A stretch of 64,000 nt of DNA from Desulfuromonadales bacterium (GTDB taxonomy: Bacteria > Desulfobacterota > Desulfuromonadia > Desulfuromonadales > BM103). The stretch covers positions 1-64,000 of the forward strand of contig JACZKE010000002.1 in NCBI GenBank assembly GCA_014860225.1. The letters are read 5' to 3'. The notes beneath the pieces were generated by a model that was not told the origin of the DNA, ran no database searches, and saw only the letters and a list, made by a program, of their open reading frames with translations. The first letter of the stretch is position 1. Every line of letters begins with the position of its first letter. Of this stretch, positions 44,016 through 60,832 are shown piece after piece. The position numbers were made by a program, and so were the translations under genes.

Positions 44016-44030
44016 GACGGTTGACCGGCA

Positions 44031-44397: not shown

Positions 44398-44443
44398 TTG
44401 AAAACTCTGTAAATGTCATTTATAGTTCGCATAATACGAACTA
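44398..44443 (+). promoter_or_regulatory. Promoter and palindromic operator of the NTase/winged-helix pair
   Basis: TTGAAA (44398-44403), a 17-base spacer and TATAGT (44421-44426) make a good sigma-70 promoter. TAGTTCG (44423-44429) and CGAACTA (44437-44443) are exact inverted repeats around 7 bases and overlap the -10 box and the start of transcription. This is where an autorepressor should bind; the second gene encodes a winged-helix protein. Confidence 0.75.
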
Positions 44444-44452
44444 GGAGATACA

Positions 44453-45052: not shown

Positions 45053-46043
45053 AAAGAAAATCCTTGAAAGCCTACTCGATCTATTGTGGCGACAATGGTC
45101 TGCAATTGGTGTTTCCGGTTACAGCACGTCAGAAGAGTCGAAGGTGATTGACCCAGAGGCTCTCTTGTTGCTGACCTTGACGGTTGCTCGGCACGATGCT
45201 CGTTTATTTGATGAAGTGCTGGATTGGCTGGGTGTCAACGGAGACTTTTTGAATGTTCAGCGCCTGCAGAACCTGGTGAAACAATTTGATTTCCAGGCCA
45301 AGGTGGAGCTTAGCGCCATTGCAGAGATGCTTGGCCAAAAATCCTCTGTAGCGCTCAAATGGAAAAAACTGGCGACAAAATACTTCCAGGAAAAGGAATC
45401 AGCTCTATTCTATATGAAAGATGGGCGTCAGATGCCGTCACCAGAAGAATGCGACGGAATCTTTCGTCATCATGGACTGCTGCGCCCAGTGATTCAGAAA
45501 CGAGGGCTTTCTCAAGCTTTTCCCAAAGAAGGAATGCCCGCTTTGCTTTTGCGGCTGCGAGCTCTGTTTGGAGTGAATCTCAGATGTGAAATTCTATGCC
45601 TACTCGGGTCGGTTGATGAAATTCACCCTTCTCTGATTGCCAAATTAATTGGCCAAAGCCCGCGCTCAACGCAGAATATTCTGGCTGAAATGGCTCGCTC
45701 AGGTGTCGTACAGGTTCGAACCAGCGCTCGCGAAAAAATTTACGCCCTTGCCCCAGAAGCCCTGGATAAACTATTGCGGCCGGAAGGCTGGACACCATGG
45801 GTGAATTCTGTTCCATTATTTCGGGCTCTCGAGATTCTTTGGCTTGGCGTGACCAATCCCAAGTTACAATCGCTCGATCCGTTGATGCTGGCCTCGGAAT
45901 GGCGGAGGATAACGAAGCAGATCAGGCCGTTACTCGGGGACGCCGGAAGGGGGCAGCCTTTACGGGAAGATTTTTCGTTTGCAGGTGAAAAATATTACGA
46001 GATTTTCATAGATGACATTAGCCAGGTTTTGGCCAAGCTATAA
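45027..46043 (+). CDS. Winged-helix regulator paired with the nucleotidyltransferase
   Basis: 338 residues from ATG 45027. The centre (about 185-250) is a MarR/ArsR-like winged helix: LRCEILCLLGSVDEIHPSLI, then SPRSTQNILAEMARSGVVQV as the recognition helix, and EKIYALAPEAL as the wing. The flanking helical regions are unassigned. Probably represses its own operon through the TAGTTCG palindrome, acting as the antitoxin-like half. Confidence 0.7.
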   Translation: MSISLTEFKKKILESLLDLLWRQWSAIGVSGYSTSEESKVIDPEALLLLTLTVARHDARLFDEVLDWLGVNGDFLNVQRLQNLVKQFDFQAKVELSAIAEMLGQKSSVALKWKKLATKYFQEKESALFYMKDGRQMPSPEECDGIFRHHGLLRPVIQKRGLSQAFPKEGMPALLLRLRALFGVNLRCEILCLLGSVDEIHPSLIAKLIGQSPRSTQNILAEMARSGVVQVRTSAREKIYALAPEALDKLLRPEGWTPWVNSVPLFRALEILWLGVTNPKLQSLDPLMLASEWRRITKQIRPLLGDAGRGQPLREDFSFAGEKYYEIFIDDISQVLAKL

Positions 46044-46284
46044 CTTGATGCTTATTTTGAGGCTCGTCCACCATGTCAGGTGCCGCCGCAGGCAGGGACC
46101 TAGATTGCGGGATTTGTTGGAATGGCTATCAGGCTATCCACCTAGACCCCAAAATCAATGAAGAACATAATCTAGAACGCCACCAATGTTTTGACCTTCC
46201 TTGAAGACTGGGGTAGATTGGCGATGTTAAATTTTTATTGATCTACGAGAAAATTTGTTGCTAAGGGGGGCATCAGTTAAGGAG

Positions 46285-46312
46285 GCCATCCGATCGCAGG
46301 GTGGCTTTTTTT
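46285..46312 (+). terminator. Rho-independent terminator
   Basis: GCCATCC/GGGTGGC stem (46285-46305, one wobble) with a 7-base loop followed by seven T. It lies in the 355-bp gap 46044-46398, which holds no gene that I can support, and ends the NTase operon before the next defence genes. Confidence 0.85.
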
Positions 46313-46398
46313 CGTAACTATTCCCCCGTCCCTGAAGTCGATGCCCTGGCGGGCTCAGCTTAACGGCCCGTCCCGTCATGCACTAGCACGGAGCCAGC

Positions 46399-47124
46399 AT
46401 GAGTGATATTTACGCGAACGCCGTTGACTCACTTCGAATAGGCATTGAACATTTCTTGAAGGTGCCGGGCTACTCTAGCCGCAAACACGCAATTCTTACC
46501 CTTTTTCACTCGATCGAACTCTTTTTGAAAGAGCAACTCCATCGCACAAACCCCATCCTGATCTACCGGAATCTTGATACGAAGATTACCGATGACTCAA
46601 TTACGGTTGGGATCAAGGAGGCTCTAACCCGGTTGGAGAACCTTGGATCGGGATTGTCCAAGGAACCCCAAGAAGTCATCGAGCGAATTCAGAAAAGACG
46701 AAATCGCATCGAGCACCACCGCTACGATCACATGGAAGAGGACGAAAAGATCATTTCTGAATCGCTCGCCTTCATCCTATTTTTCGTAGATGGCGTCCTC
46801 AAAGGAAAACTTGAGGATGATGTACCTGCAGATACTCTCAGAGAAATTCAAAGGCTAGTGTACGACCGCCAAGACCTCTCCTGGATCGCAATGCATCGAG
46901 TTGAACAATGGATGCTTGAAATTTGGCCAGAATGGAACAACGAGGAATCGGACACCCCGGAAGAATTCAGTGGGACGCTGGACTGCCCAATCTGCCGCGA
47001 ATCATATTTGGTCCTTGGCTATCACGACAAACCATTCTGTTTCCATTGCAACACCTCCGTTGCTGCTGCCGAATGCGAAGACTGCGGTCGCACTTATCTC
47101 ATAAGCAAAGGCTGCTGTTCATGA
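46399..47124 (+). CDS. HEPN-like protein with C-terminal zinc ribbon
   Basis: 241 residues. The first 140 are helical, with RRNRIEHH (about 104-111) matching the Rx4-6H motif of HEPN ribonucleases. The last 50 carry CPIC ... CFHC ... CEDC, a double zinc ribbon that could recognise nucleic acid or protein. No membrane segment. Sits among Abi and TIR genes, so an RNA-cleaving defence protein is likely, but no named family is certain. Confidence 0.65.
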   Translation: MSDIYANAVDSLRIGIEHFLKVPGYSSRKHAILTLFHSIELFLKEQLHRTNPILIYRNLDTKITDDSITVGIKEALTRLENLGSGLSKEPQEVIERIQKRRNRIEHHRYDHMEEDEKIISESLAFILFFVDGVLKGKLEDDVPADTLREIQRLVYDRQDLSWIAMHRVEQWMLEIWPEWNNEESDTPEEFSGTLDCPICRESYLVLGYHDKPFCFHCNTSVAAAECEDCGRTYLISKGCCS

Positions 47125-47205
47125 ACCAAACGCATAACCTTGCAGTTGAGCTGACCTGCGCAAAATGCCGCGCAGGCCGCTCACTTTCAAGATAGTTGCA
47201 AAAAT

Positions 47206-48030
47206 ATGAAAATTACAGAACGAACAATTAGTGCAATAGGAAAAATAGCTACTGGCGATGAGCATCTTTCCACGTATCGTAGCGGCCCACAACTAGTTCG
47301 GCTTTTCAACGAATTCGGAACCAATGACATATATGGCCAAGGTTTTCCATCCCGTTGGCAATATGCAGAAGACAAAATTCGCTCCCTGAATGGCACTGAT
47401 GCAATCGGCGCCCTGTTGTGCCAAATACTCGATCCAAGAGAATTCATGGACACCGAGTTCAGCATGAGTGAGGCCGTACAATACGTCAATGCGAGATTTA
47501 AATACGATGGCTATGAGGTAGTTATTGATAATGGTTTAGCCAAAATTCGAGATCTGGCTGGCATTGCTGTAACCTGCGAGCATCCCTTTCAAGGCTCTAA
47601 AAAGGAAGGGCACCTTTTCATTGATGAACAAATCAAAAAGGCAGAGACAAAAATCAAAGAAGGTGACTATGACGGTGCAATAACAAATGCAAGGTCATTG
47701 CTCGAGGCCGTGTTGACTGAACTCGAAAAAACACTCGATAAAAATGCACCACCATACGATGGTGATCTGACCAAACTATATAAACGGGTACAAAAACTTT
47801 TGAATTTAGAACCAGGCCGACCTGATATTGAAGGCCCATTAAAACAGGTACTTTCAGGCTTGAGCAGTATCGTGAATGGCATGGCTGGCTTAAGCAATAA
47901 AATGGGTGACAGGCATGTCCGGTCTTATAAGCCCAATAAACACCATGCTTCACTTGTAGTAAACACAGCGAAAACATTAGCTAACTTTCTCTTTGAAACA
48001 CATCAGTATCAGAAAGGAAAAAGCAGCTAA
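47206..48030 (+). CDS. Abortive infection protein (AbiJ/Abi_C-like)
   Basis: 274 residues. The C-terminal part (about 145-268) has the Abi_C pattern: a helix pair around ARSLLEAVLTELEKTL, LYKRVQKLLNLEP, then MGDRHVRSYKPNKHHA and TLANFLFETH, a HEPN-type fold with the RxxxxxH residues. The N-terminal part (about 1-130) resembles AbiJ N-terminal domains. The ribosome site is weak. Acts, by analogy, by RNA cleavage when phage infects. Confidence 0.75.
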   Translation: MKITERTISAIGKIATGDEHLSTYRSGPQLVRLFNEFGTNDIYGQGFPSRWQYAEDKIRSLNGTDAIGALLCQILDPREFMDTEFSMSEAVQYVNARFKYDGYEVVIDNGLAKIRDLAGIAVTCEHPFQGSKKEGHLFIDEQIKKAETKIKEGDYDGAITNARSLLEAVLTELEKTLDKNAPPYDGDLTKLYKRVQKLLNLEPGRPDIEGPLKQVLSGLSSIVNGMAGLSNKMGDRHVRSYKPNKHHASLVVNTAKTLANFLFETHQYQKGKSS

Positions 48031-48163
48031 CAGTAGATCAAGCGGATGGAATGGGGCTGGGTCCTTCCCGAAAACAAAACCAAATTGCGGCAAGTCAAGC
48101 TTGCGTCGCCACCGCTTGTCGTGAACCGTTAACACTTCACTTTCAAATAGGGAGATAAGGGAC

Positions 48164-48877
48164 ATGGCTAGATGCACAGCACCAGTACTCGGCCATCGCA
48201 CAGCGAGCGCCGCAGCCAACTGCCCTGCGTGCGGTGAACGTTATGGAAGAAGCTATGGGGGGTACAGCAGCTACGGGTCGTATTCACCCTCGTCATACTC
48301 CCCGACGCGAAGCAGTGGGAGTAGTGGGAGTAGTGGGAGTAGCGGCGGGCCAAGCCGCGGCACAAAGCCGCGCTGGTCTGGAGCCGGTTCGTCCGTGTGG
48401 TACACGCCTGAAGAAGTGCGAGCGCTCACACCTTTACGCAACAGCGTCGAGGAGTTGACAAAGAAGCCTGACCTTCGGGATGTATTCCTATGCCATGCCT
48501 GGGACGACCGGTGGGGGGCAGCTAAGGAGCTTCACGATCTACTGGAGTCATGTGGTGTGCGGGTCTGGTTTAGCGAGAAAGACGTTGGCCTTGGTGTGCC
48601 GTTACTCCGTGCAATTGATAAGGGCCTGGCAAACTCGAAAGTAGGAATCGTGCTGGTGACCCCTGCGCTGCTACGCCGCTTACCTGCAGAGGGCATCGCT
48701 GACAAAGAGCTGTCGGCACTTCTCGCGCGCGAGCGGCTCGTCCCAGTCGTGCACGGGACGACGTATGAAGCTCTCCGCGAAGTTAGCCCCCTTCTTGCTT
48801 CGCGAAGTGGCCTGAGTACTGCAGAAGATCCAATGGCAGACGTCGCAGCCAAGCTCGCAGAGCTGGTTGCGCTATAA
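48164..48877 (+). CDS. TIR domain protein with zinc-finger-like N-terminus
   Basis: 237 residues. A CPAC pair near the start (one visible CxxC) and a low-complexity Ser/Gly/Tyr linker (about 30-66) precede a TIR domain (about 102-235): DVFLCHAWDDR, VRVWFSEKDVGLG and DKELSAL with the probable catalytic Glu near 182. The linker is coded by 9-bp tandem repeats. TIR enzymes make NAD-derived signals or deplete NAD. No ThsA-like sensor gene is adjacent, so the partner is unknown. Confidence 0.8.
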   Translation: MARCTAPVLGHRTASAAANCPACGERYGRSYGGYSSYGSYSPSSYSPTRSSGSSGSSGSSGGPSRGTKPRWSGAGSSVWYTPEEVRALTPLRNSVEELTKKPDLRDVFLCHAWDDRWGAAKELHDLLESCGVRVWFSEKDVGLGVPLLRAIDKGLANSKVGIVLVTPALLRRLPAEGIADKELSALLARERLVPVVHGTTYEALREVSPLLASRSGLSTAEDPMADVAAKLAELVAL

Positions 48878-50379: not shown

Positions 50380-50496
50380 CTACCCCATACTCAAAATTTC
50401 CACCTGAGCACTTGGGGCCTTTCTCCGGATCAGCTTCTCAAACTCATCCCAAGAGAGTGTGTACTCACGATTGTTGATTCTGACCTTGACCGACAT
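50380..50496 (-). CDS. Small 38-residue protein
   Basis: Starts at ATG 50496 with AAGGAG 8 bases upstream, stops directly at the bidirectional terminator. Sequence MSVKVRINNREYTLSWDEFE continues into a basic helix and ends ILSMG. Too short for family recognition, but the ribosome site, terminator and structured 5' region (GTAGGGCTTC/GAAGCCCTAT-type stem around 50529-50580) argue for a real gene, last in the module. Confidence 0.6.
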   Translation of the reverse strand: MSVKVRINNREYTLSWDEFEKLIRRKAPSAQVEILSMG

Positions 50497-50634
50497 AGAC
50501 CGTCTCCTTTCCGGTTGAAGTTCGCCCGATAGGGCTTCCTGCAACCCCCGTCAAAATGGACAGGAGCTCCAAGAAGCCCTACCGGGTTACCGGAAGGGAT
50601 GGATCTATGTGATCAGATCAAAGGCGCTTGGAAG

Positions 50635-50994: not shown

Positions 50995-51489
50995 CTATAA
51001 GATCCCATCGTTAGCGAAGGAGTAATATCCTGTCTCACCAACGATCAAATGATCCAGCACGCGGATTCCGAGAAGTTCACCAGCATCTTTGAGCCGCTTG
51101 GTGATCTCAATATCCTCTCGGCTTGGTGCCGTATCTCCCGAAGGGTGGTTGTGAATGAAGATCACTGCTGCTGCAGATGACAGCAACGCCGCCTTATATA
51201 CCTCGCGAGGGTGAACGATACTCGCATTGAGCGAACCGATTGAAACCGTGTCGTAACAGATGATCCGGTTTTTGGCGTCCAAATGAAGAGCCACAAAATT
51301 CTCCTTGGCCTCCTTTGCCAAATCGCGGAACAACTCGAACACATTCTCAGCGCTGGTGCAGGATGTATTCACCCAGGCAGGTGCGTTCTCCCGAATCACT
51401 TCGTTATTAAAAACCGCTCGGATTGACCTGATGCGGATTTTTTGGGTTTTCGGCTCGGGCTCCAGACCGAAAAGATTCATCGATTCCAT
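50995..51489 (-). CDS. radC: RadC-like JAB-domain protein
   Basis: 164 residues. JAB/MPN metalloprotease fold of the RadC type, with FIHNHPSGDTAPSREDIEIT as the metal site. Plasmid and ICE RadC proteins lack the N-terminal helix-hairpin-helix and have no proven activity. It is in the same position relative to cobS and bet as in SXT-like elements. The start is behind AGGAGA inside a structured leader. Confidence 0.88.
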   Translation of the reverse strand: MESMNLFGLEPEPKTQKIRIRSIRAVFNNEVIRENAPAWVNTSCTSAENVFELFRDLAKEAKENFVALHLDAKNRIICYDTVSIGSLNASIVHPREVYKAALLSSAAAVIFIHNHPSGDTAPSREDIEITKRLKDAGELLGIRVLDHLIVGETGYYSFANDGIL

Positions 51490-51556
51490 ATCCTATTCTC
51501 CTTGTCGGGAACGGACATGGACCCCTTGCGGGGGCTTTGTCTGCCCCCGCTAATGG
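51490..51556 (-). promoter_or_regulatory. Structured leader of the radC gene
   Basis: On the minus strand GCGGGGGC/GCCCCCGC forms a strong hairpin, then CCATGTCC can pair with GGATATGG, a segment that includes the AUG, while TTCC pairs with the Shine-Dalgarno GGAG. A variant of the leader type seen at seven other genes of this module. Confidence 0.55.
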
Positions 51557-51568
51557 GTGATTGAATTG

Positions 51569-51946
51569 TTACTGGTGCAAGCTTGTTTCGTCAGGACTCT
51601 CCAGGAATCCTGAATGCAACCTGATAGCCTTTCCGATGGCATCGACGCAGGAAGTGACTCTATCGTCACCGTCAATTACCGGTGCCCTGTGGCAACCATG
51701 GCCGATCAACCCTTTGATCGCATCTCTCACATCCATACCGGATCGAAGTCCGTAAGACGTAATGATCGTCAGCGCATTGGCGACCAGACTTCCGCAGGTA
51801 CCTGATTTTCCGAACCTGACAAACACCTCCATGAGGTCGCCGGTATCCGGGTTATCATTCAATGTGACGTATATTTTCCCGCAAGGTGATTGCATCTCAA
51901 GGGTTTCTCCCTGAACAGCCTTCGGCCGTTGTCGTTTGGGTGTCAT
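51569..51946 (-). CDS. TSCPD-domain protein
   Basis: 125 residues. It resembles the C-terminal TSCPD domain of B12-dependent ribonucleotide reductase (NrdJ): MQSPCGKIYVTLN, VFVRFGKSGTCGSLVANAL, and the end DRVTSCVDAIGKAI. On its own this domain may deliver reducing power or regulate host ribonucleotide reductase, which would suit an element that synthesises DNA during transfer; that role is inference. Confidence 0.75.
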   Translation of the reverse strand: MTPKRQRPKAVQGETLEMQSPCGKIYVTLNDNPDTGDLMEVFVRFGKSGTCGSLVANALTIITSYGLRSGMDVRDAIKGLIGHGCHRAPVIDGDDRVTSCVDAIGKAIRLHSGFLESPDETSLHQ

Positions 51947-51970
51947 GATTATCCTCCAAGGTCGTGATTG

Positions 51971-52729
51971 TCAGGACAGCGCCTCGCAAACAGCCTTCAG
52001 TCCAATGGCAGTTTGGGTAACACTGTCGAGATAGGCCCAGGCTTTTGAATCGCTCCCGTCACTTTGTGGAACGTTGACCAGGTCCTCGTCCGGGGTGGAT
52101 TCGGTGTCATAGTCAATGACCATGACCTTCCAATCGGCCATTAACTCCGGCTGATCGGAAACGATTGCCTGGACGATACCTCCCTGGAGTATGATTCCCA
52201 AGTAGGGAGCAGGCCGATTCAAAATCCTTTGCACTTCGCTTAACGCCACCTTCTGGATCTCCGGTTCCTTCATGGAACCAATAACCAGAGAGGCTTCAAT
52301 TGTTCGCAAAACCGAAAGAGGGGTTTGCGGCATGTGATGTCGATTTGTGAGGTCATTGGATTCAACGGGGCCAAGGGGAACGGTGTCGGTTTCCCACCGA
52401 ACATTGGTGTGTTTGACGTAGCCACTCCAATAATAATCATCGGTCGTGACATTCAACGTCACGCACTCCACCCGGCAGGCATTTTCTTCATCCTCGTCTT
52501 CCGGTGTCCGGTACGCTATCGGCCCATCGTTCTCCTCAGCGTCATAGTCCCGAAGGAAGAAGTCCGGAGAGCCATTGAACTCGGAGACTTTGTAAGCTCC
52601 AAGAACTTTTGCCGCTGCCGCCAGTTGACGAATGCGGGCATCAAGCGTCGAGGTGATCTCCACCACGGCAACTTCAGGCCCGTGATCGAACTCGGAACCG
52701 ATATGAACCTCCAATATTTTCTTAGTCAT
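51971..52729 (-). CDS. Hypothetical protein of the maintenance module
   Basis: 252 residues, acidic, no membrane segment and no family recognised. The N-terminal half contains an Asp/Glu-rich loop (PEDEDEENACR); the C-terminal half looks alpha/beta. It has the structured leader of the module and lies between the CobT-like and TSCPD genes. Confidence 0.6.
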   Translation of the reverse strand: MTKKILEVHIGSEFDHGPEVAVVEITSTLDARIRQLAAAAKVLGAYKVSEFNGSPDFFLRDYDAEENDGPIAYRTPEDEDEENACRVECVTLNVTTDDYYWSGYVKHTNVRWETDTVPLGPVESNDLTNRHHMPQTPLSVLRTIEASLVIGSMKEPEIQKVALSEVQRILNRPAPYLGIILQGGIVQAIVSDQPELMADWKVMVIDYDTESTPDEDLVNVPQSDGSDSKAWAYLDSVTQTAIGLKAVCEALS

Positions 52730-52796
52730 GATCTTCTCCTGTCATTGGGGACCGGGAGAAGTCCCCCGGGAGGGGAATATTTCCCCCCGTCCGGGT
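52730..52796 (-). promoter_or_regulatory. SD-sequestering leader, copy 1
   Basis: Minus-strand order: hairpin GGGGAA/TTCCCC (52772-52786), then CTTCTCC (52755-52761), then the ribosome site GGAGAAG (52733-52739). The last two pair over 7 bp and would hide the ribosome site of the gene starting at 52729. Confidence 0.65.
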
Positions 52797-52818
52797 TGGT
52801 TGTTCTGTTGGTTTTTGC

Positions 52819-54501
52819 CTATTCGGTCAACGCTTCCTGGAAAAGCTCGAAAACTGCGGCTGGCAGCTCACTGAGGCTCTGGACCGTTCGATGTCTGGCA
52901 AAGAAATGCCTCGTCGTTCCTTGATCCAAAATTCCGAGCCCCATGAGTTCGACCCCTTCTGCTTCCAATTTTTCGAGAAGGGCCCTTACCAGTCCAGGAT
53001 TTGAAGGCTGACCATCGGTTGCAACCAGCAGTATTTTTCTCTGTTCTTGTCTGACGGCCATCTGGACCCTGGCCCATCCGAGAGCCTGAGCTAAAGGTGT
53101 TCCCCCGTTGGCTGTTATCGCGTAGTTATCCTTCGTCTGAGAAGCTGTTCGGCCGAAAGGGGTCATTGAAACCACCGCCCCTTCTTTTCCCGGAAACGCT
53201 CCTGTCGATACGCTGATTCCCGGAATAACACCAAGGACATCGGCAAGGGCCAGCACGGTCTTTCTTGCCAGCTCCATGCGAGCCCCTGACATCGATCCGG
53301 AGCGATCAAGAAGAACGATCACTGCGGTATTGATGGCGCGTTTTTCCTCTTTGCGTCGGAACACTCGTGGATCACCTGCAGGCAATCGGTGTAGCGTTCG
53401 GTGGTCGACCAAGCGCCCGAGGCGGCCGGCACACGACCTCTTTAGTTTGGACGCCTGCACCAGCCTTGCGAGCTTGGAGCGAAGTGCCACTGTTTCATGT
53501 CGGACCTGGTGGAGATCTGGTGGATTTCCACAGGTCACTTCTTTAGCGAGTTGTTCTCCCGGATAGATACCAGTCATGGATTCCATGCCGTTTTCTCTCA
53601 CCGCCTGGTCAGACGCTGCCTGTAATGCTTCAGCAGTCATCTGACCGAGGTCCCCAAACGCACCGGGATCTTTCCCCAGAATCCGTTTTAAGGTCTCTTT
53701 GCTGGCGGCCGGCGAAGATCTGGAACCTTCAGTGATATCCGTGTCATTGTCAGACCCGGACGGTGATTCTTCCATGCTGCTGTCTTCCGGAGCGTCATTG
53801 CCCTGCTTGTCTGATTTAGACTCAGGGGATGGAGTCGGTTGTTCCTCGGATTTTTTCTTGTCCGTCTGGCTTGCCGCCTTTTGTGGACGTTGATTCTGAG
53901 CCTGCCTAAGCCGATCCAGAATCTCTTCGGCCAGATCATGTGCCTGACGAGTCGTTGAAAGACTCTCAACTCTCTTCAGCAATGCCTCAGTTTGGTTCAC
54001 GAGAACAACTCCAAGCCGTTTAACCAATGACTTCCTTGCTTTTTGAGCGACAGGAACCAGGGCTGACTGCTTCAGTACGTGACTGCGACATTCGGCCAAG
54101 ATCCAGCCCAAAAAGAGCTGCTCCGGTTTGTTTGCTGATGGGGTAAAGGCCCCTTCATAGGCCAGATGATTAGCGAGGTTTCGCAAGTTGACGGCGCAAC
54201 CGGGATAGGTCCACCCCATCGCCTGCTCTATACGGATATCCTCAAGGATGTTGGCAAGAGCCTTATGAATTGGGGTGTCTTCCCTCACGGAAAAGTCCGT
54301 GTGGCGAACATGCCCGGCCTCGTGGTCAAGATATCCACGCGCCAAGATCCAGGCCGATTCGTCCCCTTCGGGAAGCACAGGCAGATAAATGGTGTTGCCA
54401 TCTGTCATAGCCTGGCTACCTTGAATGCGAACTTTGACGCCCATCTTATCCCCCATCGCCATGGCGACGACGGGCAGGGATCGAATGAAAACCTTGTTCA
54501 T
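52819..54501 (-). CDS. CobT-like VWA-domain protein
   Basis: 560 residues from ATG 54501 behind GGAGG. The N-terminus has a peptidase-like DHEAGHVRH (about 65-73); the middle is a low-complexity acidic region (about 205-275); the C-terminal third is a von Willebrand A domain with the MIDAS motif LLDRSGSM and downstream TPLAQAL and LVATDGQPS. With the MoxR/CobS-like ATPase encoded upstream it should form a metal-insertion or remodelling chelatase-type complex. Cobalamin synthesis itself is unlikely on a mobile element. Confidence 0.82.
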   Translation of the reverse strand: MNKVFIRSLPVVAMAMGDKMGVKVRIQGSQAMTDGNTIYLPVLPEGDESAWILARGYLDHEAGHVRHTDFSVREDTPIHKALANILEDIRIEQAMGWTYPGCAVNLRNLANHLAYEGAFTPSANKPEQLFLGWILAECRSHVLKQSALVPVAQKARKSLVKRLGVVLVNQTEALLKRVESLSTTRQAHDLAEEILDRLRQAQNQRPQKAASQTDKKKSEEQPTPSPESKSDKQGNDAPEDSSMEESPSGSDNDTDITEGSRSSPAASKETLKRILGKDPGAFGDLGQMTAEALQAASDQAVRENGMESMTGIYPGEQLAKEVTCGNPPDLHQVRHETVALRSKLARLVQASKLKRSCAGRLGRLVDHRTLHRLPAGDPRVFRRKEEKRAINTAVIVLLDRSGSMSGARMELARKTVLALADVLGVIPGISVSTGAFPGKEGAVVSMTPFGRTASQTKDNYAITANGGTPLAQALGWARVQMAVRQEQRKILLVATDGQPSNPGLVRALLEKLEAEGVELMGLGILDQGTTRHFFARHRTVQSLSELPAAVFELFQEALTE

Positions 54502-54573
54502 GGTGTCCTCCAAAGAACGCCCCCCGTCCGGGGCGTTTCGGCAGAAACAGACCCCGGGATGGCGGGATGAGAA

Positions 54574-55491
54574 TCAGAACCAAGTCGCCGGCATAGCAGC
54601 TGCCAAAGGCATTGGTGTCATCTCCTCTAGTTCTATGAAAGGCTCAATGATCCTCTCGATGTCTTCGTCTCCATAATCCTGTTCAAGGACGACAGGGTTT
54701 TTTGCTCCTTCCAGATCGACCAACGCGTGCAGAACTCCCACCAGCTGGCGAAAGTCTCGCCCTTCCAGGTAACCGGATTTCGGCAGGCCATTTAGCTCTT
54801 CCTCGATCCCAGCGATCACCGGAACAAGGCTCCCTTCCAAGAAAGACAGCCCTTTGGCTTTTTCCAAAATGGCTCGGATTGGTCTTAGGGCTTTCTGACT
54901 GACCTTGGCCCGTCCCCGAAAAGATGCTTCCCAGGTCTGGATCGCTGAACGAGAGATTTCCTTGATGAGTCGGTCTCCGAGAGTATTAACGGAAGCGGTC
55001 AGTCCATCGTCCAATCCTTCAACGCCCTGAACCTGAAAGGTCTGGTGCGAAAATGAAAGACGGTTGGCGATGGACTCGATCGGCTCGATGGCCTCAGCGA
55101 CCATGTGTCGCCATTGGCTTGGGATTGTTTTTAGCCAGACCTCGGTGGACTCGCTATAGCGGGCGAGGAAATGTTGCTTCTCTTCCGCAAAATCAGCAGC
55201 CACTTTTCTGAGTTCATCAACGACAGCCTCGGCCTTGTCCTGAGGGATGGTGTATCCCCCCAGAAATCGGACCCCTGCCGCTTCGCACGCACGTTCGGCG
55301 CGTCTTCTCAGATTCTGGAATGTTTTGAGTTCGTCGGGATCGCAGATCTTCTTGACCCCAAGAGAGGCGAGTTCTTCCGGAGGAATTTCTCCGGCGTTAA
55401 GGTTCAGGTCAGCGGGCTGGAGTTTCTTCCGGCCGCTCCAAATGTGGATATTGAGACTGACACAGATCAGCTTGTTCAGCATGTCGAGCAT
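54574..55491 (-). CDS. DUF3150 protein
   Basis: 305 residues, mostly helical, cytoplasmic. The N-terminus (LNIHIWSGRKKLQPADL) and Cys/Ala-rich helix (RRRAERACEAAGVRFLGGYTI) match DUF3150, a family almost always found between CobS-like and VWA genes in ICEs and plasmids. Probably the third subunit of that complex. Carries the clearest of the module's leaders. Confidence 0.8.
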   Translation of the reverse strand: MLDMLNKLICVSLNIHIWSGRKKLQPADLNLNAGEIPPEELASLGVKKICDPDELKTFQNLRRRAERACEAAGVRFLGGYTIPQDKAEAVVDELRKVAADFAEEKQHFLARYSESTEVWLKTIPSQWRHMVAEAIEPIESIANRLSFSHQTFQVQGVEGLDDGLTASVNTLGDRLIKEISRSAIQTWEASFRGRAKVSQKALRPIRAILEKAKGLSFLEGSLVPVIAGIEEELNGLPKSGYLEGRDFRQLVGVLHALVDLEGAKNPVVLEQDYGDEDIERIIEPFIELEEMTPMPLAAAMPATWF

Positions 55492-55561
55492 GGATTCCTC
55501 CTTTAAAGTTGACCTGGAGGAATCCCCCTGCCGGGAGATTTTCTCCCCCAGGCGGGGTTGA
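55492..55561 (-). promoter_or_regulatory. SD-sequestering leader, copy 2
   Basis: Hairpin GGGAGA/TCTCCC (55533-55547) with outer CCCC/GGGG, followed by GGATTCCTCC (complement of 55516-55525), which pairs perfectly over 10 bp with GGAGGAATCC (complement of 55492-55501). The second arm is the ribosome site and reaches the base before the AUG of the gene starting at 55491. Confidence 0.75.
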
Positions 55562-55564
55562 CGA

Positions 55565-55909
55565 CTAGAACCAGTTTTGGGTGTTTTCCTGTCCCCACTC
55601 CTGTAGCACCGATGAGACGCCAGAATCTTGTTCAGAGACCGGGCTACAAGGTTCTACAGGTGGGGGAGGCGCAACACCGGCTAGGCTTGGTTGCTCCCGA
55701 ACCAGCATGTAGCCTTTCTTCATTTTTTGGTCGGCCCGGCTGCGGGCTTCTCCAGTCGGGTCCGGACGGCATTCGATAGCAGGAATGAATCTTTCCTGCA
55801 TGGTTCGCGCAGCGGTTTTTCCAAACCGAATGACCAGACCGTCTGGCCTGATCTCAGCGAACCAATCCTTACTGCCTCCGGCCGGATGGTAATAACGCAG
55901 ATGAATCAT
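55565..55909 (-). CDS. WGR-like hypothetical protein
   Basis: 114 residues. DGLVIRFGKTAARTMQERFIPA and a basic segment (ARSRADQKMKKGYMLV) recall WGR domains; the tail is Pro-rich and disordered. Lies 12 bp downstream of the CobS-like gene without a leader of its own, so it is probably translated from the same message. Confidence 0.5.
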   Translation of the reverse strand: MIHLRYYHPAGGSKDWFAEIRPDGLVIRFGKTAARTMQERFIPAIECRPDPTGEARSRADQKMKKGYMLVREQPSLAGVAPPPPVEPCSPVSEQDSGVSSVLQEWGQENTQNWF

Positions 55910-55921
55910 CAGTTATCCCTC

Positions 55922-56851
55922 CTATCCGAAAATGCGCTGAGCGATTTCCGCCAGAGCACTCCGGCTCTCGGGTTCGGCCCTGAATGACAAGGCGCGTTCC
56001 AGAGCGTGGAGGAGCGGGTTTTTCCCCTGAGCCGCAAGCGGCCGGAAGAATTCCGCCATTTTCGCCCACCGAACCAGAGTCCGGGTGGAGAGGGTAACTT
56101 CGACCTGCCCGCCGACGAAGAGCTTGCGCACCTCGGTGGCAAAGGCGATCATTCCTTTTCTCAGTTCTTCGGGAAGCGCCGGAACGACTCGGGTCAAAAT
56201 ACTCAATTCCTGTTCCATCTCGGGATAGCCGACTTCGACCATCCAAAAACGGTCCAGAAAAGCGAGATTCTGGCGCAGTGTTCCCTGATAAAGCCCAGTC
56301 TGATCTCCTGACCCTGCCGTGTTCCCGGTTGCAATGAAGCAAAAACCAGGGGCAGAGGTCACCATTTCACCACTTTTCTCCGGAATAACCAGAGGAGCCC
56401 CTTCGACAATGCCGTTAAGGCCTGCTGCGGTTGCCGGATCGAGCAGATCAATCTCATCGAGAAGAAACCAATGGCCTTCTCGCATGGCAATGGTAAGGGG
56501 CCCGTCGACAAAAGACATGGAGCCAGCAACCAAAGCATAGTGACCGATCAGCTCGGGTGTTTCCAACCGACTGTGTGCGGTGACGCGGTGTACGGGGATA
56601 TTCAGACGAGCGGCGACCTGGAGAACCAGGGTTGATTTTCCGGACCCGGTGGGGCCGGTCAGATAGAGGCCTTCGGTCCCGCCAAGCATATGCCAGGCGA
56701 GAAGGTCTGAAAGGAGATCCTTTCGGAACAGGTAATGCTGATCCAGGCGCGGAACGAAAGGTGTTCCCTCCTGATAACCTTGGACCGTCAGTTCGTCGGG
56801 TATCCCTTCGAGCCCGAAGGTTTTGGCGATACTGAATGCTTTTGTTTTCAT
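55922..56851 (-). CDS. cobS: CobS-like MoxR-family AAA+ ATPase
   Basis: 309 residues. Walker A LTGPTGSGKSTLV (about 64-76), Walker B WFLLDEIDLLDP (about 130-142), sensor 1 FIATGNT and the arginine-containing ENLAFLDRFWMV-type block. Closest in plan to CobS subunits of cobalt chelatase and to MoxR ATPases, which work with VWA proteins; a VWA gene follows two genes downstream. SXT/R391 elements carry a cobS-like gene next to bet and exo as here. Confidence 0.88.
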   Translation of the reverse strand: MKTKAFSIAKTFGLEGIPDELTVQGYQEGTPFVPRLDQHYLFRKDLLSDLLAWHMLGGTEGLYLTGPTGSGKSTLVLQVAARLNIPVHRVTAHSRLETPELIGHYALVAGSMSFVDGPLTIAMREGHWFLLDEIDLLDPATAAGLNGIVEGAPLVIPEKSGEMVTSAPGFCFIATGNTAGSGDQTGLYQGTLRQNLAFLDRFWMVEVGYPEMEQELSILTRVVPALPEELRKGMIAFATEVRKLFVGGQVEVTLSTRTLVRWAKMAEFFRPLAAQGKNPLLHALERALSFRAEPESRSALAEIAQRIFG

Positions 56852-56935
56852 CGTGTCTTCTCCTTGATCGTGATCGACCCGGAAGAGACACGTCCCCTGT
56901 CAGGGGAGGAAGTCTCCCCCGGGCCGGGGTTTAAG
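56852..56935 (-). promoter_or_regulatory. SD-sequestering leader, copy 3
   Basis: Hairpin GGGGAG/CTCCCC (56903-56919) inside a CCCC/GGGG outer stem, then CGTGTCTCTTCC opposite GGAGAAGACACG (ribosome site, 56852-56863), 10 of 12 positions pairing, with a GATC/GATC hairpin between the arms. Confidence 0.65.
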
Positions 56936-56939
56936 TTGG

Positions 56940-57143
56940 TCAGGCCGCTTCTTCAGCTTTCCATACCGAAATCATGCGCGGTATGGAGTCCACCTTATAG
57001 GCCACGATCACCAATCCTTTGTAGCGGAACCGCAATGGGTTCTCGTTGAGGATCGGAGCGGCCATTCGGCAGGCGTCAACAGCTTCGTATGGAATTTCTC
57101 GTTCCAGAATGCGGTTAGCAGCGTGCATCGTCAGCGCGACCAT
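56940..57143 (-). CDS. DUF4258-like small protein
   Basis: 67 residues: MHAANRILEREIPYEAVDAC, then RFRYKGLVIVAY and ISVWK, the pattern of DUF4258 proteins, which are RelE-fold-like and common in toxin or plasmid contexts. Its start lies within the end of the upstream small membrane gene (13-bp overlap). Confidence 0.6.
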   Translation of the reverse strand: MVALTMHAANRILEREIPYEAVDACRMAAPILNENPLRFRYKGLVIVAYKVDSIPRMISVWKAEEAA

Positions 57144-57301
57144 GACGCCACCTCCTTTTCCATGTCCTTGTAGACTCCATAGGCGTGAAGAAATTCACGG
57201 GAGCGTTCTTCTCTGTCAGGCCGCAACAGCGGGGTCAGAATCATGTGCAGAAAAAGCAGCACAGTCAGTCCCACGGCCAGCAGGTAACTGAAATCTTTCA
57301 T
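57131..57301 (-). CDS. Small membrane protein
   Basis: 56 residues from ATG 57301 with AAGGAG 6 bases upstream. One N-terminal helix (MKDFSYLLAVGLTVLLFLHM) and a charged cytoplasmic tail. Function unknown. Its 5' region (57302-57375) has GGGCG/CGCCC and CCA/TGG stems but only a poor anti-ribosome-site arm, so it is a weak member of the leader group. Confidence 0.55.
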   Translation of the reverse strand: MKDFSYLLAVGLTVLLFLHMILTPLLRPDREERSREFLHAYGVYKDMEKEVASWSR

Positions 57302-57383
57302 CGTGTCTCCTTGTCGGGCGCAAACACTCCGAAAAAGGAGGCCCACCAGGGCGATAGTTGCGCCCCGCTGGGGAATAGTGTTG

Positions 57384-57608
57384 TCAGGCAGCGTTACTGG
57401 TTGCCGGGATCACCTCTTCATAAGGATTACCGTCGAACAGCTTGGCAACGGGAACGAATACAAATTCGTCCTGGCAGCGGTTCACGGCGCAGATCACCAT
57501 GACCAGTTTGCCTGTCGCTGAGCAATGGCACTCCATGAGAGCGAGATCTCCATTGGCGGCTGCCAGTTTCAATGTCTCAAAATTGTTTTTGTGTCCCTTG
57601 GGAATCAT
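57384..57608 (-). CDS. DUF6117-like small protein
   Basis: 74 residues: MIPKGHKNNFETLKLAAANG, ALMEC, VMVICAVNR, then FVFVPVAKLFDGNPYE. This pattern recurs in ICE and plasmid proteins which I believe are grouped as DUF6117. Function unknown. Preceded by a typical leader of this module. Confidence 0.65.
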   Translation of the reverse strand: MIPKGHKNNFETLKLAAANGDLALMECHCSATGKLVMVICAVNRCQDEFVFVPVAKLFDGNPYEEVIPATSNAA

Positions 57609-57680
57609 CGTGCCTCCTTGTGGATTGTCGTCAAAGGGAGGCCCCCGTTGACAGGAGGTAGGCCTCCCGTCCGGGATGAG
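57609..57680 (-). promoter_or_regulatory. SD-sequestering leader, copy 4
   Basis: Hairpin GGAGG/CCTCC (57654-57667), then GCCTCC (complement of 57637-57642) opposite the ribosome site GGAGGC (complement of 57612-57617). The first hairpin's GGGAGGC arm could instead pair with GCCTCCC and free the ribosome site. Confidence 0.65.
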
Positions 57681-57699
57681 ATGTTGCGTGATGGCTTGC

Positions 57700-58644
57700 C
57701 TAGATTGGCTTGATGTCGAGCCGGGTAAATCCGGCGCGTTCCTTTTTTACCTGCTGGTAGACATCGGGGAACCGATTCTTGAGCACATAGGCATCGACAG
57801 TCTCCGAAGGACCAACCTCCGAAGTATTGATGAACAGACTGTCCGATTTTCCCTTGAATCGGGTTCCGGTGAAGGAAAGAATGTCTTCCTTGAGTTTGCT
57901 GACTTTCTTCTCTGCGGTTTTCTTCAGTTCGGTTGCTTCCAGGTGGCGCTTGGCCAAGGCCTGCACTTCATCGGGAATAACAAAAGCTTCTTCCAGAAAT
58001 GCTGGACAGTCGATTCGGTACGGACAGAATCCGCACAGAAGTCCAGGCTCCACGTCAGGAGTTTCCCCGACATCGAGGCAGGCCTTGATGCGTCGCCCTT
58101 TGGCGACCAGAAGATTGAAGGTGATTTCATCGGGTTTGTAGCTGTTGAATTCATGCCAGGTGCCGGCGTTCAGATCGATGGCGAGAATACTCCCACCGAT
58201 GTCGGCGCCTGGATAATGGAGGGCTAACAGGCCCATCTGGAAATGCAGTTGGTCCACCCAGGACCCGTATGGGGTGTCGGGCAGGCCGTTGGTGGTTTTC
58301 AGTTCGACGACATGGAATCTGCCGCTTTTCGCCTTGAACAGGAAGTCAATGTGGCAGAGCAGATCTGGGAACACGGGGTGGCGGATTTCCATTTCCCGCA
58401 GAGGGGTCAATCCTCCCGCCTGGAAAATCCCGTGGATCAGATCCTCTGCCGCATGCCCCCGGGCGAACTTCAACAAAGTTGCCGCGTCGTGCTCGACCGG
58501 TAGAATGCGGGTCAAAACCGCTTTACGAGGACAACCTCCGATATCGGAAGCACCGATATAGGTTCTGCGGTCCCCGAGGTGTTGGCTGCTTTGCCGGTTC
58601 TTTTCTTTCAGTGCTTTTTCAAGAAATGCCTGAAGTTTGCTCAT
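57700..58644 (-). CDS. Cas4-like PD-(D/E)xK exonuclease
   Basis: 314 residues. Active-site blocks CHIDFLFKAKSGRFHVVELKT (Asp ... Glu-x-Lys, about 90-112). Four cysteines for an iron-sulfur cluster: one in GGCPRKAV near 34 and CGFCPYRIDC near 200-210. An RGHAAE His also fits. With Bet it should form a recombination pair like lambda Exo-Bet, with this nuclease in the Exo role. Located next to bet, 12 bp past a small membrane gene. Confidence 0.85.
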   Translation of the reverse strand: MSKLQAFLEKALKEKNRQSSQHLGDRRTYIGASDIGGCPRKAVLTRILPVEHDAATLLKFARGHAAEDLIHGIFQAGGLTPLREMEIRHPVFPDLLCHIDFLFKAKSGRFHVVELKTTNGLPDTPYGSWVDQLHFQMGLLALHYPGADIGGSILAIDLNAGTWHEFNSYKPDEITFNLLVAKGRRIKACLDVGETPDVEPGLLCGFCPYRIDCPAFLEEAFVIPDEVQALAKRHLEATELKKTAEKKVSKLKEDILSFTGTRFKGKSDSLFINTSEVGPSETVDAYVLKNRFPDVYQQVKKERAGFTRLDIKPI

Positions 58645-58655
58645 GATTGCCCTCC

Positions 58656-58760
58656 CTAGAAAACGATCGCCAAGACCGCCACCATCGGTAAGCCGAGGGC
58701 GACACCGGTCAGGACATTTCTCATTTCTACGAATTCGAGGGCTTCGATGATTGCTTTCAT
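58656..58760 (-). CDS. Small single-helix membrane protein
   Basis: 34 residues: MKAIIEALEFVEMRNVLTGV, then a hydrophobic stretch to the end. Good ribosome site (AAGGAGAC) and a full leader upstream show that it is translated. It lies between bet and the nuclease gene. Function unknown; a membrane-associated small protein or holin-like peptide. Confidence 0.65.
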   Translation of the reverse strand: MKAIIEALEFVEMRNVLTGVALGLPMVAVLAIVF

Positions 58761-58848
58761 AATCTTGTCTCCTTGTGGTTAGACCACAGGGGAGACAAGA
58801 CGCACCCCTCCCGGGGAGATCTTAAATCTCCCCCGTGGGGTAGGTTGT
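58761..58848 (-). promoter_or_regulatory. SD-sequestering leader, copy 5
   Basis: Hairpin of 8 perfect pairs, GGGGAGAT/ATCTCCCC (58813-58833), inside ACCCC/GGGGT. Then CTTGTCTCC (complement of 58791-58799) pairs over 9 bp with the ribosome site GGAGACAAG (complement of 58764-58772), around a perfect TGTGGT/ACCACA hairpin. Confidence 0.75.
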
Positions 58849-58864
58849 CATGCGATTGAGAACG

Positions 58865-59923
58865 TTACTGAGTGGTCAGATACCAGCTCTTCATTTTGCC
58901 GTCCCAGCGAAAACCGAGTTGCTTGAGAAAATTCCGGTGTTCGTAAGAGGTGGCGTAAATTGTCTTGCCGTTTTCGGTCAGCTTCGCCTCGATCTTATGA
59001 GCGGCGAGTGCGGAAAGAACCGCATCAACACTCTGAGGATTGCTGAAGGTTTTGCCTGAATTCTTCCGCTTGAGAGCTTCAATTGCCTGCTGATACAGGG
59101 CGTGTGGCAGCATCTTTAGGGAAGAGACTCCGAGGTACTGGAGGAACTTTTGTTCGTCAGTGCCGGTGCTTTGAATCAGGCTCTGGAGTGTTCCAATCTG
59201 TCCTTTTGATAAAAGAATCTCAGTGTCCGCACCCGGTTCAGGCTCTTCTTGTTCGTGGTAACCGGTTTCGGTGTTATGCCGTTCGGGATGCGAATCTTCG
59301 GTAAAATCGTCAACGATGTTTCCGGCCTGATCCATTTCTTCCTGGACATAAAGTCCTGAAAGTTCTTGTGGGAATGCGCGACGGATCGCGAGAGCTTCTG
59401 CGACCTTGGCGATCATCAGGTCCGGCATGGATGCCCAGAAACGGGTCAGGTTGCCCTGTTTCGTTCTCTGTGCGTAGGTTGAAAAGCGGGCGACTGCCCA
59501 CAGTGGTTCTTTGAAATCCGTCCGAAGAACGCCAACCTTGGCCGCTAAGGGCGTGGTTGACTCATCGAGCCAGACTTCTTTCCATTCTCCGTTTCTGCCA
59601 CACCAGTACGGGCCGAGTTGGCCGGCATACTTGCCGGTTCTTTCGGCGATCAGCCTGAAGCCGTCGATTGAAGTCTGGATGGACATGACTTCACGGTTCT
59701 GACTGGAATCCCAGCGTTTGATCGCGTGGATTTGGCGGGCAAAGGGGTCCAGGCCGGTGCGTTTGCACTGATTGACGAAAAGCTGAAGCTCATCGTTGCT
59801 GGCCCCTTTACAGATTGTTCGCTTGATGAGGGTGATTTTCTCCTCGTCGAACAAAGACTGGGGGACCGGTAGCCTGGCGGTGTGATTGTGAAGAGTAAGG
59901 GCTTGTGCTGTTTGAGCGGTCAT
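58865..59923 (-). CDS. bet: Bet/RecT-family single-strand annealing protein
   Basis: 352 residues from ATG 59923, behind AAAGGAGACA; the frame is open to 60067 but that stretch is the leader. The RecT/Bet domain (about 20-215) has [38 protein letters not shown] and [14 protein letters not shown], typical of Bet. The C-terminal part (about 240-352) has an acidic linker and a small fold ending [11 protein letters not shown]. Anneals complementary strands for homologous recombination between elements. Confidence 0.92.
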
Positions 59924-60008
59924 CGTTGTCTCCTTTCTCGGGCGAAAGCCCGAACAGGGGAGACAGAACCGCCCCGCCCGGGGAGATGATGTCTCCCCCT
60001 TGGGGTGG
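59924..60008 (-). promoter_or_regulatory. SD-sequestering leader, copy 6
   Basis: Hairpin GGGGAGA/TCTCCCC (59980-59998) in a CCCC/GGGG outer stem, then TGTCTCC (complement of 59959-59965) pairing over 7 bp with the ribosome site GGAGACA (complement of 59927-59933), around TCGGGC/GCCCGA with a 4-base loop. Confidence 0.75.
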
Positions 60009-60032
60009 TCGCTACGTTGTCGGATAGGTCCC

Positions 60033-60416
60033 TTAGAAGGGATGTTCCTCTTGGTCAGTTTGGTCATCGAACCAGCAAAGGTCTTTGACCTTCTCCAGAA
60101 ACTTCACTTGGTCGGCTACGATCTCTGTGATGTAGCGATCTTGGCCGCCTTTGTCCTGATATTTCCGCAAGCGGATTTTGCCTTCGACAAAGACAAGTTT
60201 GCCTTTCGTCAAATAGTTGTGGCAGGTGTCCGCAAGGGATTTCCAGGTAACGATGTTGTGCCATTCAGTGAATTCCTTGACCTCTCCGTCCTTGTCTTTG
60301 CGCCGTTCAGAGGTTGCCAGTGAAAATGTCGTCACAGGCGTACCTGAGGCTGCGGTGCAGCGATAGTCCGGATCGGTTCCCAACCTTCCAATCAATTGAA
60401 CCTTGTTGAGCATCAT
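60033..60416 (-). CDS. ssb: Single-stranded DNA-binding protein
   Basis: 127 residues. OB fold with the usual start ([20 protein letters not shown]), [22 protein letters not shown] and [11 protein letters not shown]. The tail is shortened but keeps an acidic end with final Phe (DQEEHPF), the docking site for partner proteins. First gene of the leftward recombination module, behind a leader and a terminator-like hairpin. Confidence 0.93.
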
Positions 60417-60495
60417 TTTTCTCCTTTCTCGGGTTTCCCCGGCAAAAAGGAGTCATCCCACCAAGGGAAGAAGTCTCCTCCCGGCCGGGATGGTT
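60417..60495 (-). promoter_or_regulatory. SD-sequestering leader, copy 7 (ssb)
   Basis: Upstream stem CATCCC/GGGATG with inner GGGA/TCCC-type pairs, then CTCCTTT (complement of 60446-60452) opposite the ribosome site AAAGGAG (complement of 60421-60427), around CGGG/CCCG. Same order as the other copies, with different paired bases. Confidence 0.65.
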
Positions 60496-60502
60496 GTTTG
60501 GA

Positions 60503-60540
60503 CAACAAAAAACCCATTCCGGCACAATGCCAAAACGGGT
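60503..60540 (-). terminator. Rho-independent terminator upstream of ssb
   Basis: On the minus strand ACCCGTTTTGGCA pairs with TGCCGGAATGGGT along all 13 positions (three wobbles) across a 3-base loop, followed by TTTTTGTTG. It lies between the only promoter seen and ssb, so it either ends a separate short RNA or acts as an attenuator. Confidence 0.85.
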
Positions 60541-60797
60541 CAGTTAATTCGGTATTCCGTTGCACGTTGAGAAAACGTACGTTATTTCGATAGACCACTT
60601 TTCAAGGTGGAAACTAGAAAAGCGGAGGTACACCACAGGGGAGTCTGCTGTTGCATGCAGATCGGGTCACCGGGCGTTCCGGTATCTCCCTGGTTAATCG
60701 TCCCATGCCTGGGGTATTAGGATTAGAGGCTATCTCTAAAACTTTGTCCTGCTCAATAGAGAGCAAGGAGTCACTATAGAAACATAGTGTGGATTAA
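60541..60797 (-). ncRNA. Candidate structured RNA between promoter and terminator
   Basis: Transcription from the promoter at 60805-60832 would cross this stretch and could stop at 60503, giving about 295 nt with no open frame of note. It can form CACTAT/ATAGTG (60774-60791), CCGG/CCCGG and TCTGC/GCAGA stems. It contains CTCCTT and GACTCCCC, segments complementary to ribosome sites and to the GGGGAG arms of the leaders downstream. Independent RNA or long ssb leader are both possible. Confidence 0.45.
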
Positions 60798-60804
60798 TAG
60801 GTCT

Positions 60805-60832
60805 ATTTTAAAAATCTCATCAACTCTGTCAA
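60805..60832 (-). promoter_or_regulatory. Promoter for the leftward module
   Basis: Minus-strand TTGACA (complement of 60827-60832), 16-base spacer and TAAAAT (complement of 60805-60810), close to the sigma-70 consensus. It points toward ssb and the recombination genes. Confidence 0.7.

Follow-up and report, generated by a model that had tools for sequence, protein, structure and literature searches.

Two long-lived folds, one of which hides the ribosome site, are known from the hok mRNA and from the leader of the MS2 maturation gene, and the radC RNA motif (RF01754) is found upstream of radC and other DNA-handling genes. Closest to the case described here is the bet gene of SXT, which is preceded by a "strong translational attenuator" that hinders expression of the recombination genes (PMC4542580, citing Garriss et al. 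2013). In its available passages, the same source places the attenuator in IncA/C plasmids as well, reports lowered translation for SXT only, and treats IncA/C plasmids and SXT/R391 integrative and conjugative elements (ICEs) through their transcription activators. Here we describe a family of leaders that would hide the Shine-Dalgarno (SD) sequences of many genes in one minus-strand recombination module. The module lies in a window of 64,000 nucleotides (nt), the whole stretch that we analyzed, from a Desulfuromonadales bacterium (assembly GCA_014860225.1, contig JACZKE010000002.1, positions 1 to 64,000; own genome, 3.9 Mb). Because the SXT bet attenuator is already in print, SD hiding has a precedent and the idea is not wholly new.

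We folded 14 gene starts of the module, and the minimum free energy (MFE) folds of seven (genes named by start: 52729, 55491, 56851, 57608, 58760, 59923, and 60416) carry one plan. A hairpin, P1, is built from outer CCCC/GGGG strands and two inner strands, arm1 and arm2; it is followed by a second hairpin, P2, in which a segment complementary to the SD (anti-SD) pairs with the SD. A reading made from the sequence alone (the sequence-only reading) had proposed a GC-rich hairpin and an SD-hiding segment at these same seven starts, and all seven fold accordingly. Start 51489 (radC) has a clear P1 and a weaker P2, while 57301 has a P1-like hairpin and a differing second hairpin; the MFE folds of 51946, 55909, 57143, and 58644 lack the plan. 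In eight of the nine leaders, the mean unpaired probability of the GGAG core is at most 0.02, with radC at 0.254.

The family is real. Model R1 was trained on 18 leaders, four from the window (59923, 56851, 55491, and 58760) and 14 from relatives, and was applied to the window and 37 of 104 loci. In the window it recovered four leaders outside its training set (52729, 60416, 57608, and 51489; E values 6.3e-6 to 3.0e-4). Across the 3.9-Mb genome it gave nine matches at E <= 1, of which seven were sense and all within the module, one was antisense inside the recT leader, and one, elsewhere, was at chance level (E 0.95); leader 57608 was missed in this search. A second model, R2, was built from alignment A6, the best 150 of 159 matches from 30 sources (133 sense, 17 antisense and partial). 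R2 matches all nine window leaders, eight of which were training rows, as were five IncC matches; the ninth, 57301, was not a training row and matched at E 0.0087, and R1 missed it at a limit of 0.1. The two weaker members proposed earlier therefore differ, with 51489 joining the family and 57301 remaining weak.

Permutation tests of complementarity pointed the same way (negative z, greater within a leader than between leaders). Over the nine leaders, the middle stretch against the SD gave z -3.8 (2 of 3000 permutations equal or better) and the upstream against the middle stretch -4.3 (0 of 3000); 20 plus-strand gene starts of the window, taken as a comparison, gave +0.6 for both. In this window test and in the single-plasmid test below, the upstream and middle stretches share two bases, which is not so in the 106- and 156-start tests.

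The leaders are also predicted to adopt a second, open fold: a full alternative hairpin in which arm1 pairs with the anti-SD segment, enclosing a pairing of arm2 with the outer 3' GGGG and leaving the SD free. The sequence-only reading had paired the inner arm with the anti-SD segment and nothing more; that pairing stands, and its limitation to these two strands does not, since arm2 also changes partner. We examined 66 leaders, less than 80% identical and chosen because they fold as P1 plus P2. With the SD forced open in the computation, many refold to one long hairpin, with at least six arm1:anti-SD pairs in 35 of the 66. Arm1:anti-SD complementarity gave z -8.8 (0 of 2000 permutations) and still -7.0 when the same leaders were shuffled within gene families, while untargeted pairings gave +1.7 (arm2:SD), +1.7 (arm1:SD), and -0.2 (arm2:anti-SD). 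The second open-fold helix, arm2 with the outer 3' strand and linker, gave -4.5 in the 50 of 66 leaders with a P1 internal loop. Four of the thirteen pair tests (o5:o3, o5:a1, a2:s3, and o5:s3) were set aside as spoiled by no-duplex values; in the same set, the outer 3' strand and linker against anti-SD gave a weak, unexplained signal (-3.2), and o5:SD gave +2.9.

The signal persisted without structural selection. For 106 starts in nine gene families (vwa, 55909, 57143, and TSCPD left out), z was -8.3 for middle:SD, -7.3 for upstream:middle, and 0.0 for upstream:SD; for 156 starts in all families, the values were -6.7, -7.5, and +1.2. SD hiding is thus supported by these structure-free values as well as by computed energies. 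As the sequence-only reading had noted, the arms change from gene to gene yet stay paired. Single cases of the arm1:anti-SD pairing are striking. In the exo leaders of two relatives (L017 and L018), arm1 is GGGGCGGA and the anti-SD segment TCCGCCCC, and the DUF3150 leader of a third (L015) has CTGCGGGAAAGACGC against GTGTCTTTCCCGCAG as its complementary pair.

Co-variation across homologues is likewise present. For alignment A2, made with MAFFT, we selected 18 leaders by eye from four genes (the recT, AAA, DUF3150, and 58760 types); they do not include the DUF3150 leader of L015, which folds best in the open form. Given no structure, RNAalifold returned the open fold from A2, one of three alignments folded. 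Open-fold pairs filled 90.9% of A2 cells against 84.8% when shuffled, with 20 double-changed cells against 6.9 (0 of 500 shuffles each); slid versions reached at most 62% of cells paired, and the open-fold pairs beat shuffled controls on three of five measures. The 150 matches of A6, fitted to the open fold and hence biased to it, gave 95.8 against 81.2%, with double changes in 11 of 11 arm1:anti-SD pairs. On this comparative evidence, the predicted alternative pairing of arm1 with the anti-SD segment is strongly supported, more so than the sequence-only reading could offer.

A RecT relative was found at E <= 0.001 in 7 of 98 genomes, the own genome counted, and we fetched seven stretches from five of these genomes. 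In four stretches (L015 to L018), matched proteins are 32 to 90% identical to those of the window, and an MFE parser found P1 plus P2 at 4/7, 6/10, 4/10, and 8/10 homologous starts, against 7/12 in the window. Some parser misses (recT and DUF3150 of L015) have a differing best fold with the arms visible by eye. We then collected 536 homologous starts, dropping L001 to L014, L020, minus-strand matches, matches beginning after query residue 30, places with no start codon, and starts with less than 100 bases upstream. P1 plus P2 was present at 43 of 44 bet-type starts (mostly near-identical loci; six distinct at 93%) and at 7 of 11 recT-type starts, over a parser background of about 33 to 39%. 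Relatives of the DUF3150 gene occur in 1099 plasmid records, one phage-collection record, and 120 genome stretches, the best 80 of which were used; many such loci we label SXT/R391-like from their host and gene content.

Leader matches were found in 7 of 136 genomes of the order (R1, E <= 0.001, strict filter) and in 12 of 395 of the phylum (R2, E <= 1e-4, strict filter). On an IncC plasmid, of which 110,067 of 160,789 bases were searched, R1, trained without IncC sequence, gave 13 plus-strand matches at E <= 0.01, all within what we call the recombination/early block, and none in a 48-kb stretch (L105) holding most of the plasmid's transfer and maintenance genes. R2 at E <= 0.1 gave 22 matches, one antisense and 21 on the plus strand in this block; of the 21, at least two lie away from annotated starts (near 3,543 of L024 and 9,301 of L106). 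The 37 starts of the block gave upstream:middle z -7.1. In 13 of 15 further loci, four of which had also gone through R1 for A6, R2 gave 48 matches (one antisense), including SXT/R391-like loci, Methyloversatilis, Azospirillum, and Thiocapsa. The predicted leaders thus extend from relatives within the order to SXT/R391-like loci, an IncC plasmid, and other Proteobacteria, and their concentration in a recombination block agrees with the earlier assignment of the leaders to replication and recombination genes. In one genome (G034, contig C1, 3.98 to 4.12 Mb, L019 to L021), we observed several partial RecT matches together with 10 leader matches, as if more than one element, or remnants, were present.

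We consider it likely that every leader works in cis as a bistable translational attenuator. With P1 formed, as in the hidden fold, the anti-SD segment would be free to pair with the SD as P2, and the ribosome would be blocked. In the open fold, arm1 would exchange arm2 for the anti-SD segment (about 10 to 15 bp where this fold is found), arm2 would close on the outer 3' GGGG in a hairpin of its own, a small one, and the SD would be exposed. Ahead of the SD, the prefix folds open in 41 of the 66 leaders. For these 41, median energies are -20.7 kcal/mol for P1 alone, -28.4 for the open prefix, and -38.0 for the hidden full-length leader, with median barriers of 3.0 (P1 to hidden), 17.4 (P1 to open), and 15.3 kcal/mol (open to hidden) along direct paths without pseudoknots. 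On these computed energies the hidden fold would be the default; before the SD is transcribed, the open fold would be better than P1 alone, and once formed it would be hard to leave. These figures suggest a leader that is hidden by default, opens only when something disturbs P1 or helps it to exchange, and is long-lived once open. The step that opens P1 might be taken by an element or host protein or by ribosomes finishing a nearby upstream gene. The analysis shows the anatomy, co-variation, and distribution of the leaders; repression, switching, a trigger, and coordinated control are what we infer.

Several results weigh against this interpretation. A barrier of 3.0 kcal/mol into the hidden fold and 17.4 into the open fold means that turning on would need help, making spontaneous opening unlikely; 25 of the 66 prefixes fail to fold open, and by energy the open fold was not found for radC, 57301, and 57608 in the window, nor for IncC bet. 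Two of the five A2 measures were ordinary (reached in 119 and 44 of 500 shuffles), and from two wider, worse-aligned alignments RNAalifold did not return the open fold: A4 gave 10 pairs (arm1:arm2 plus a helix of neither fold) and A5 four arm1:arm2 pairs. The hidden fold is weak on alignment columns, at 81.3 against 80.8%, and at 76.7 against 75.4% on those of A6, though 0 of 500 shuffles reach 76.7%; we attribute this weakness to a drifting register and variable loops. Hidden-fold figures of the 66-leader test are inflated, as those leaders were chosen for P1 plus P2. Bases unpaired in the hidden fold showed nothing at the 8 positions tested, and the vwa, 57143, and TSCPD families, permuted singly, showed little complementarity signal. 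No trigger or co-regulation was found.

The parser is also unspecific: in two parts of the IncC plasmid outside the recombination block it accepts 18 of 46 and 7 of 21 starts, compared with 23 of 37 inside the block, so parser counts were rejected as proof. For these two other parts, z was -2.3 and -2.6 in the upstream:middle test and -1.5 and -3.1 in the middle:SD test, and therefore only larger values count. An earlier parser with different settings, which gave 1948 hits across both strands, was dropped, and gene 55909, positive at 2 of 35 starts, was rejected as a negative control because only 4 of its starts are nonredundant. On balance, two mutually exclusive folds both appear to be under selection, with the hidden fold weak on columns and the open fold absent from A4 and A5.

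The bistable attenuator could work in more than one way. A form that is possible, if on the whole doubtful, needs no factor: the nascent RNA would be open and translated and would later settle into the hidden fold, as the 41 open-folding prefixes and their barrier to the hidden fold would allow. P1 forms first, however, and the barrier from P1 to the open fold stands in the way, although a method without pseudoknots or kinetics is not decisive here. In another form, which we regard as unlikely, ribosomes finishing the upstream gene would disturb the outer arm of P1, and the operon's genes would be read in turn. A same-strand upstream stop does lie within 120 nt in 189 of 342 P1-plus-P2 leaders (a count that includes many near-identical loci), in 102 of the 189 at 10 to 19 nt before P1; yet at this distance the edge of a ribosome of the usual footprint hardly reaches P1, and five window leaders have distances of 7 to 23 nt, with no upstream open reading frame (ORF) at ssb in that search.

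Less likely again, the leaders could be fixed translational dampers that merely set low protein levels, the second fold having no role. The hidden fold as computed default with its low barrier, the absence of the open fold from A4 and A5, and the description of SXT bet, in the part of PMC4542580 available, solely as an expression-hindering attenuator would all suit a damper. A damper could do without complementarity between arm1 and the anti-SD segment, which is nonetheless strongly kept; both within one element and across distant elements, leaders retain the complementarity that each fold requires, and they are therefore probably switches. That the hairpins act as DNA (single-strand promoters, recombination or replication signals) is very improbable despite the conjugative-element context of recombination and replication, since 130 of 133 sense A6 rows end in ATG or GTG (the model contains ATG; 17 antisense partial rows stand besides), each leader is complementary to the SD region of its own gene, and G.U exceeds A.C by 28 to 4 in the open-fold columns of A2, which points to the mRNA strand. 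Equally improbable are transcription attenuators or terminators. A GC-rich stem directly followed by a T run on the gene strand does score in one of nine leaders (56893-56907) and in the VWA leader, but the other eight do not score; counting both strands, the region carries 19 such sites, and its shuffled versions 12.7 (standard deviation 3.2).

Beyond the single leader, we propose, with something short of even confidence, that this new RNA family forms an element-wide post-transcriptional regulon. Up to about 20 bistable leaders per conjugative element would be flipped out of the hidden fold into the open one by a single signal, whether a protein of the element, a chaperone of the host, or the traffic of ribosomes, so that recombination and early genes are released at the same time. 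SXT/R391-like ICEs, IncC plasmids, and elements of Geobacter-like bacteria, Thiocapsa, Azospirillum, Methyloversatilis, and others would have this arrangement in common. The sequence-only reading of a two-state translational switch used as a regulon is partly supported. A ProQ/FinO regulator was rejected as the trigger, as this domain had no match in the own genome.

The window leaders and the parts of the recT leader are listed in Table 1.

Table 1. Predicted leaders, parts of the recT leader, and a promoter-like site, in window positions
Feature	Position	Strand	Basis or remark
ssb two-state leader (start 60416)	60411..60496	-	MFE fold; R1 match 60411-60494, E 1.2e-5
recT two-state leader (start 59923)	59921..60012	-	MFE fold; R2 E 2.1e-12, training row
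recT leader, outer 5' CCCC	60002..60005	-	Paired in hidden fold, free in open fold; place counted by eye
recT leader, arm1 GGGGGAGACA	59990..59999	-	Partner is arm2 (hidden) or anti-SD segment (open)
recT leader, arm2 TCTCCCC	59980..59986	-	Partner is arm1 (hidden); its CCCC with outer 3' GGGG (open)
recT leader, outer 3' GGGG	59972..59975	-	Computed fold
recT leader, anti-SD segment TGTCTCCCCT	59956..59965	-	Partner is SD (hidden) or arm1 (open)
recT leader, SD segment GGAGACA	59927..59933	-	Computed fold
Two-state leader of small ORF 58760 (upstream of 58644)	58758..58847	-	MFE fold; R2 E 2.1e-12, training row
DUF6117 gene leader (start 57608)	57606..57683	-	P1 and P2 present; SD-open fold retains P1; R1 E 1.3e-4
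ORF 57301 leader, weak and divergent	57299..57377	-	Arm1-like GGGCGCAA, downstream TTGCGCCC (by eye)
AAA (CbbQ/MoxR-like) ATPase two-state leader (start 56851)	56849..56934	-	MFE fold; R2 E 6e-13, training row
DUF3150 two-state leader (start 55491)	55489..55564	-	MFE fold; R2 E 2.9e-8, training row
ORF 52729 two-state leader	52727..52805	-	MFE fold; R1 E 6.3e-6
radC leader (start 51489)	51487..51562	-	Strong P1 and weaker P2; no open fold by energy; R1 E 3.0e-4
Promoter-like site TTGACA-16-TAAAAT, 11/12	60805..60832	-	Upstream of ssb; consensus match only

For the AAA ATPase leader, the open and hidden folds differ by 4.8 kcal/mol, and the computed fold of the ORF 57301 leader lacks the alternative pairing. 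The VWA/CobT-like gene (54501) has a different two-way leader at 54499-54596 on the minus strand, in the window and in relatives, in which one strand has an upstream or a downstream partner; R2 gave no match at this leader in the window. A weak additional R2 match (E 0.022) lies downstream of radC, at 50494-50594 on the minus strand.

The module encodes, in order, ssb, recT, a small ORF (58760), 58644, DUF6117, two small ORFs, the AAA ATPase, a small ORF, DUF3150, the VWA/CobT-like gene, ORF 52729, a TSCPD gene, and radC. Gene 58644 has no Pfam match and was labeled exo from its position and from matches shared with the IncC exonuclease. Judged by its sequence, the promoter-like site may mark where transcription of the operon begins. 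Between this near-consensus promoter (11/12) and ssb (60511-60832, minus strand) stands a stem that, with its T run, is terminator-like, so transcription control before the operon is possible.

The window holds an integrative element whose transfer-type genes lie on the plus strand (ORFs judged by eye) and which also has a serine recombinase, an S24/CI-like repressor, and a TrfA-like replication protein. A Mg-chelatase/ComM-like ORF (2909-5441, by eye) is interrupted close to the gene for the serine recombinase, which suggests that the element inserted there. At 36184-39100 on the minus strand, a short prokaryotic Argonaute adjoins a TIR-domain partner, both very strong PADLOC matches and together a putative SPARTA-like pair. 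Further defense-like genes (Mrr-like nuclease, AbiJ-like, and ThsB-like TIR protein) lie at 40191-48877, between the transfer genes and the recombination module.

Rfam 15 gave no match at gathering score in the window or in seven relative loci (139,640 bases), and in E-value mode three leaders overlapped far sub-threshold eukaryotic or viral families (SNORA77, E 0.11; Noro_CRE, E 0.82; mir-2300, E 5.5). A known Rfam family of differing role, which would have spoken against the sequence-only reading, was thus rejected, with nothing credible at either threshold. RF01754 had no match in the window, the seven relative loci, or L018 and L024 (E <= 0.5), nor in the own genome, where control genomes in the same search also had none, and the radC RNA was rejected as the identity of the leaders. 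In the literature covered (titles and abstract openings, with subscription papers mostly outside), we found no leader family beyond the bet attenuator; a term search had no occurrence in the part of PMC2786100 available and two unrelated passages in that of PMC3118119.

If the recombination and early block of IncA/C plasmids and SXT/R391 ICEs shares an RNA layer of this sort, its two conserved folds could account for the poor translation of genes such as bet and exo despite their strong transcription. It would also offer an experimental way to ask when these elements call on recombination genes. Because each element carries so many leaders of the same type, the family would in addition lend itself naturally to the study of how RNA maintains two folds under selection.

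Like the radC RNA motif, the leaders stand upstream of radC and DNA-handling genes, unlike it in having no RF01754 match. With riboswitches and RNA thermometers they share SD hiding with an alternative fold; they differ in having, by eye, no aptamer-like conserved loop, and in their GC-rich stems. Two folds are common to the hok and MS2 metastable leaders and to those described here, where many of one kind occur per element. The recT (59923) leader matches the SXT bet attenuator in gene role and element type, and by computed energy in SD hiding. By energy, P1, P2, and the alternative pairing all form in the bet leader of an SXT-like locus (L050), and that of IncC keeps P1 in the SD-open computation. 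Unlike the SXT bet attenuator as far as the available passages of PMC4542580 describe it, the leaders form a family over a whole block, occur in several element types, and have a conserved second fold. With the bet precedent and both folds in hand, our finding extends a known case to a family with a conserved second fold; what is new is this extent, the family, and the second fold, while the function is suggested by analogy and inference.

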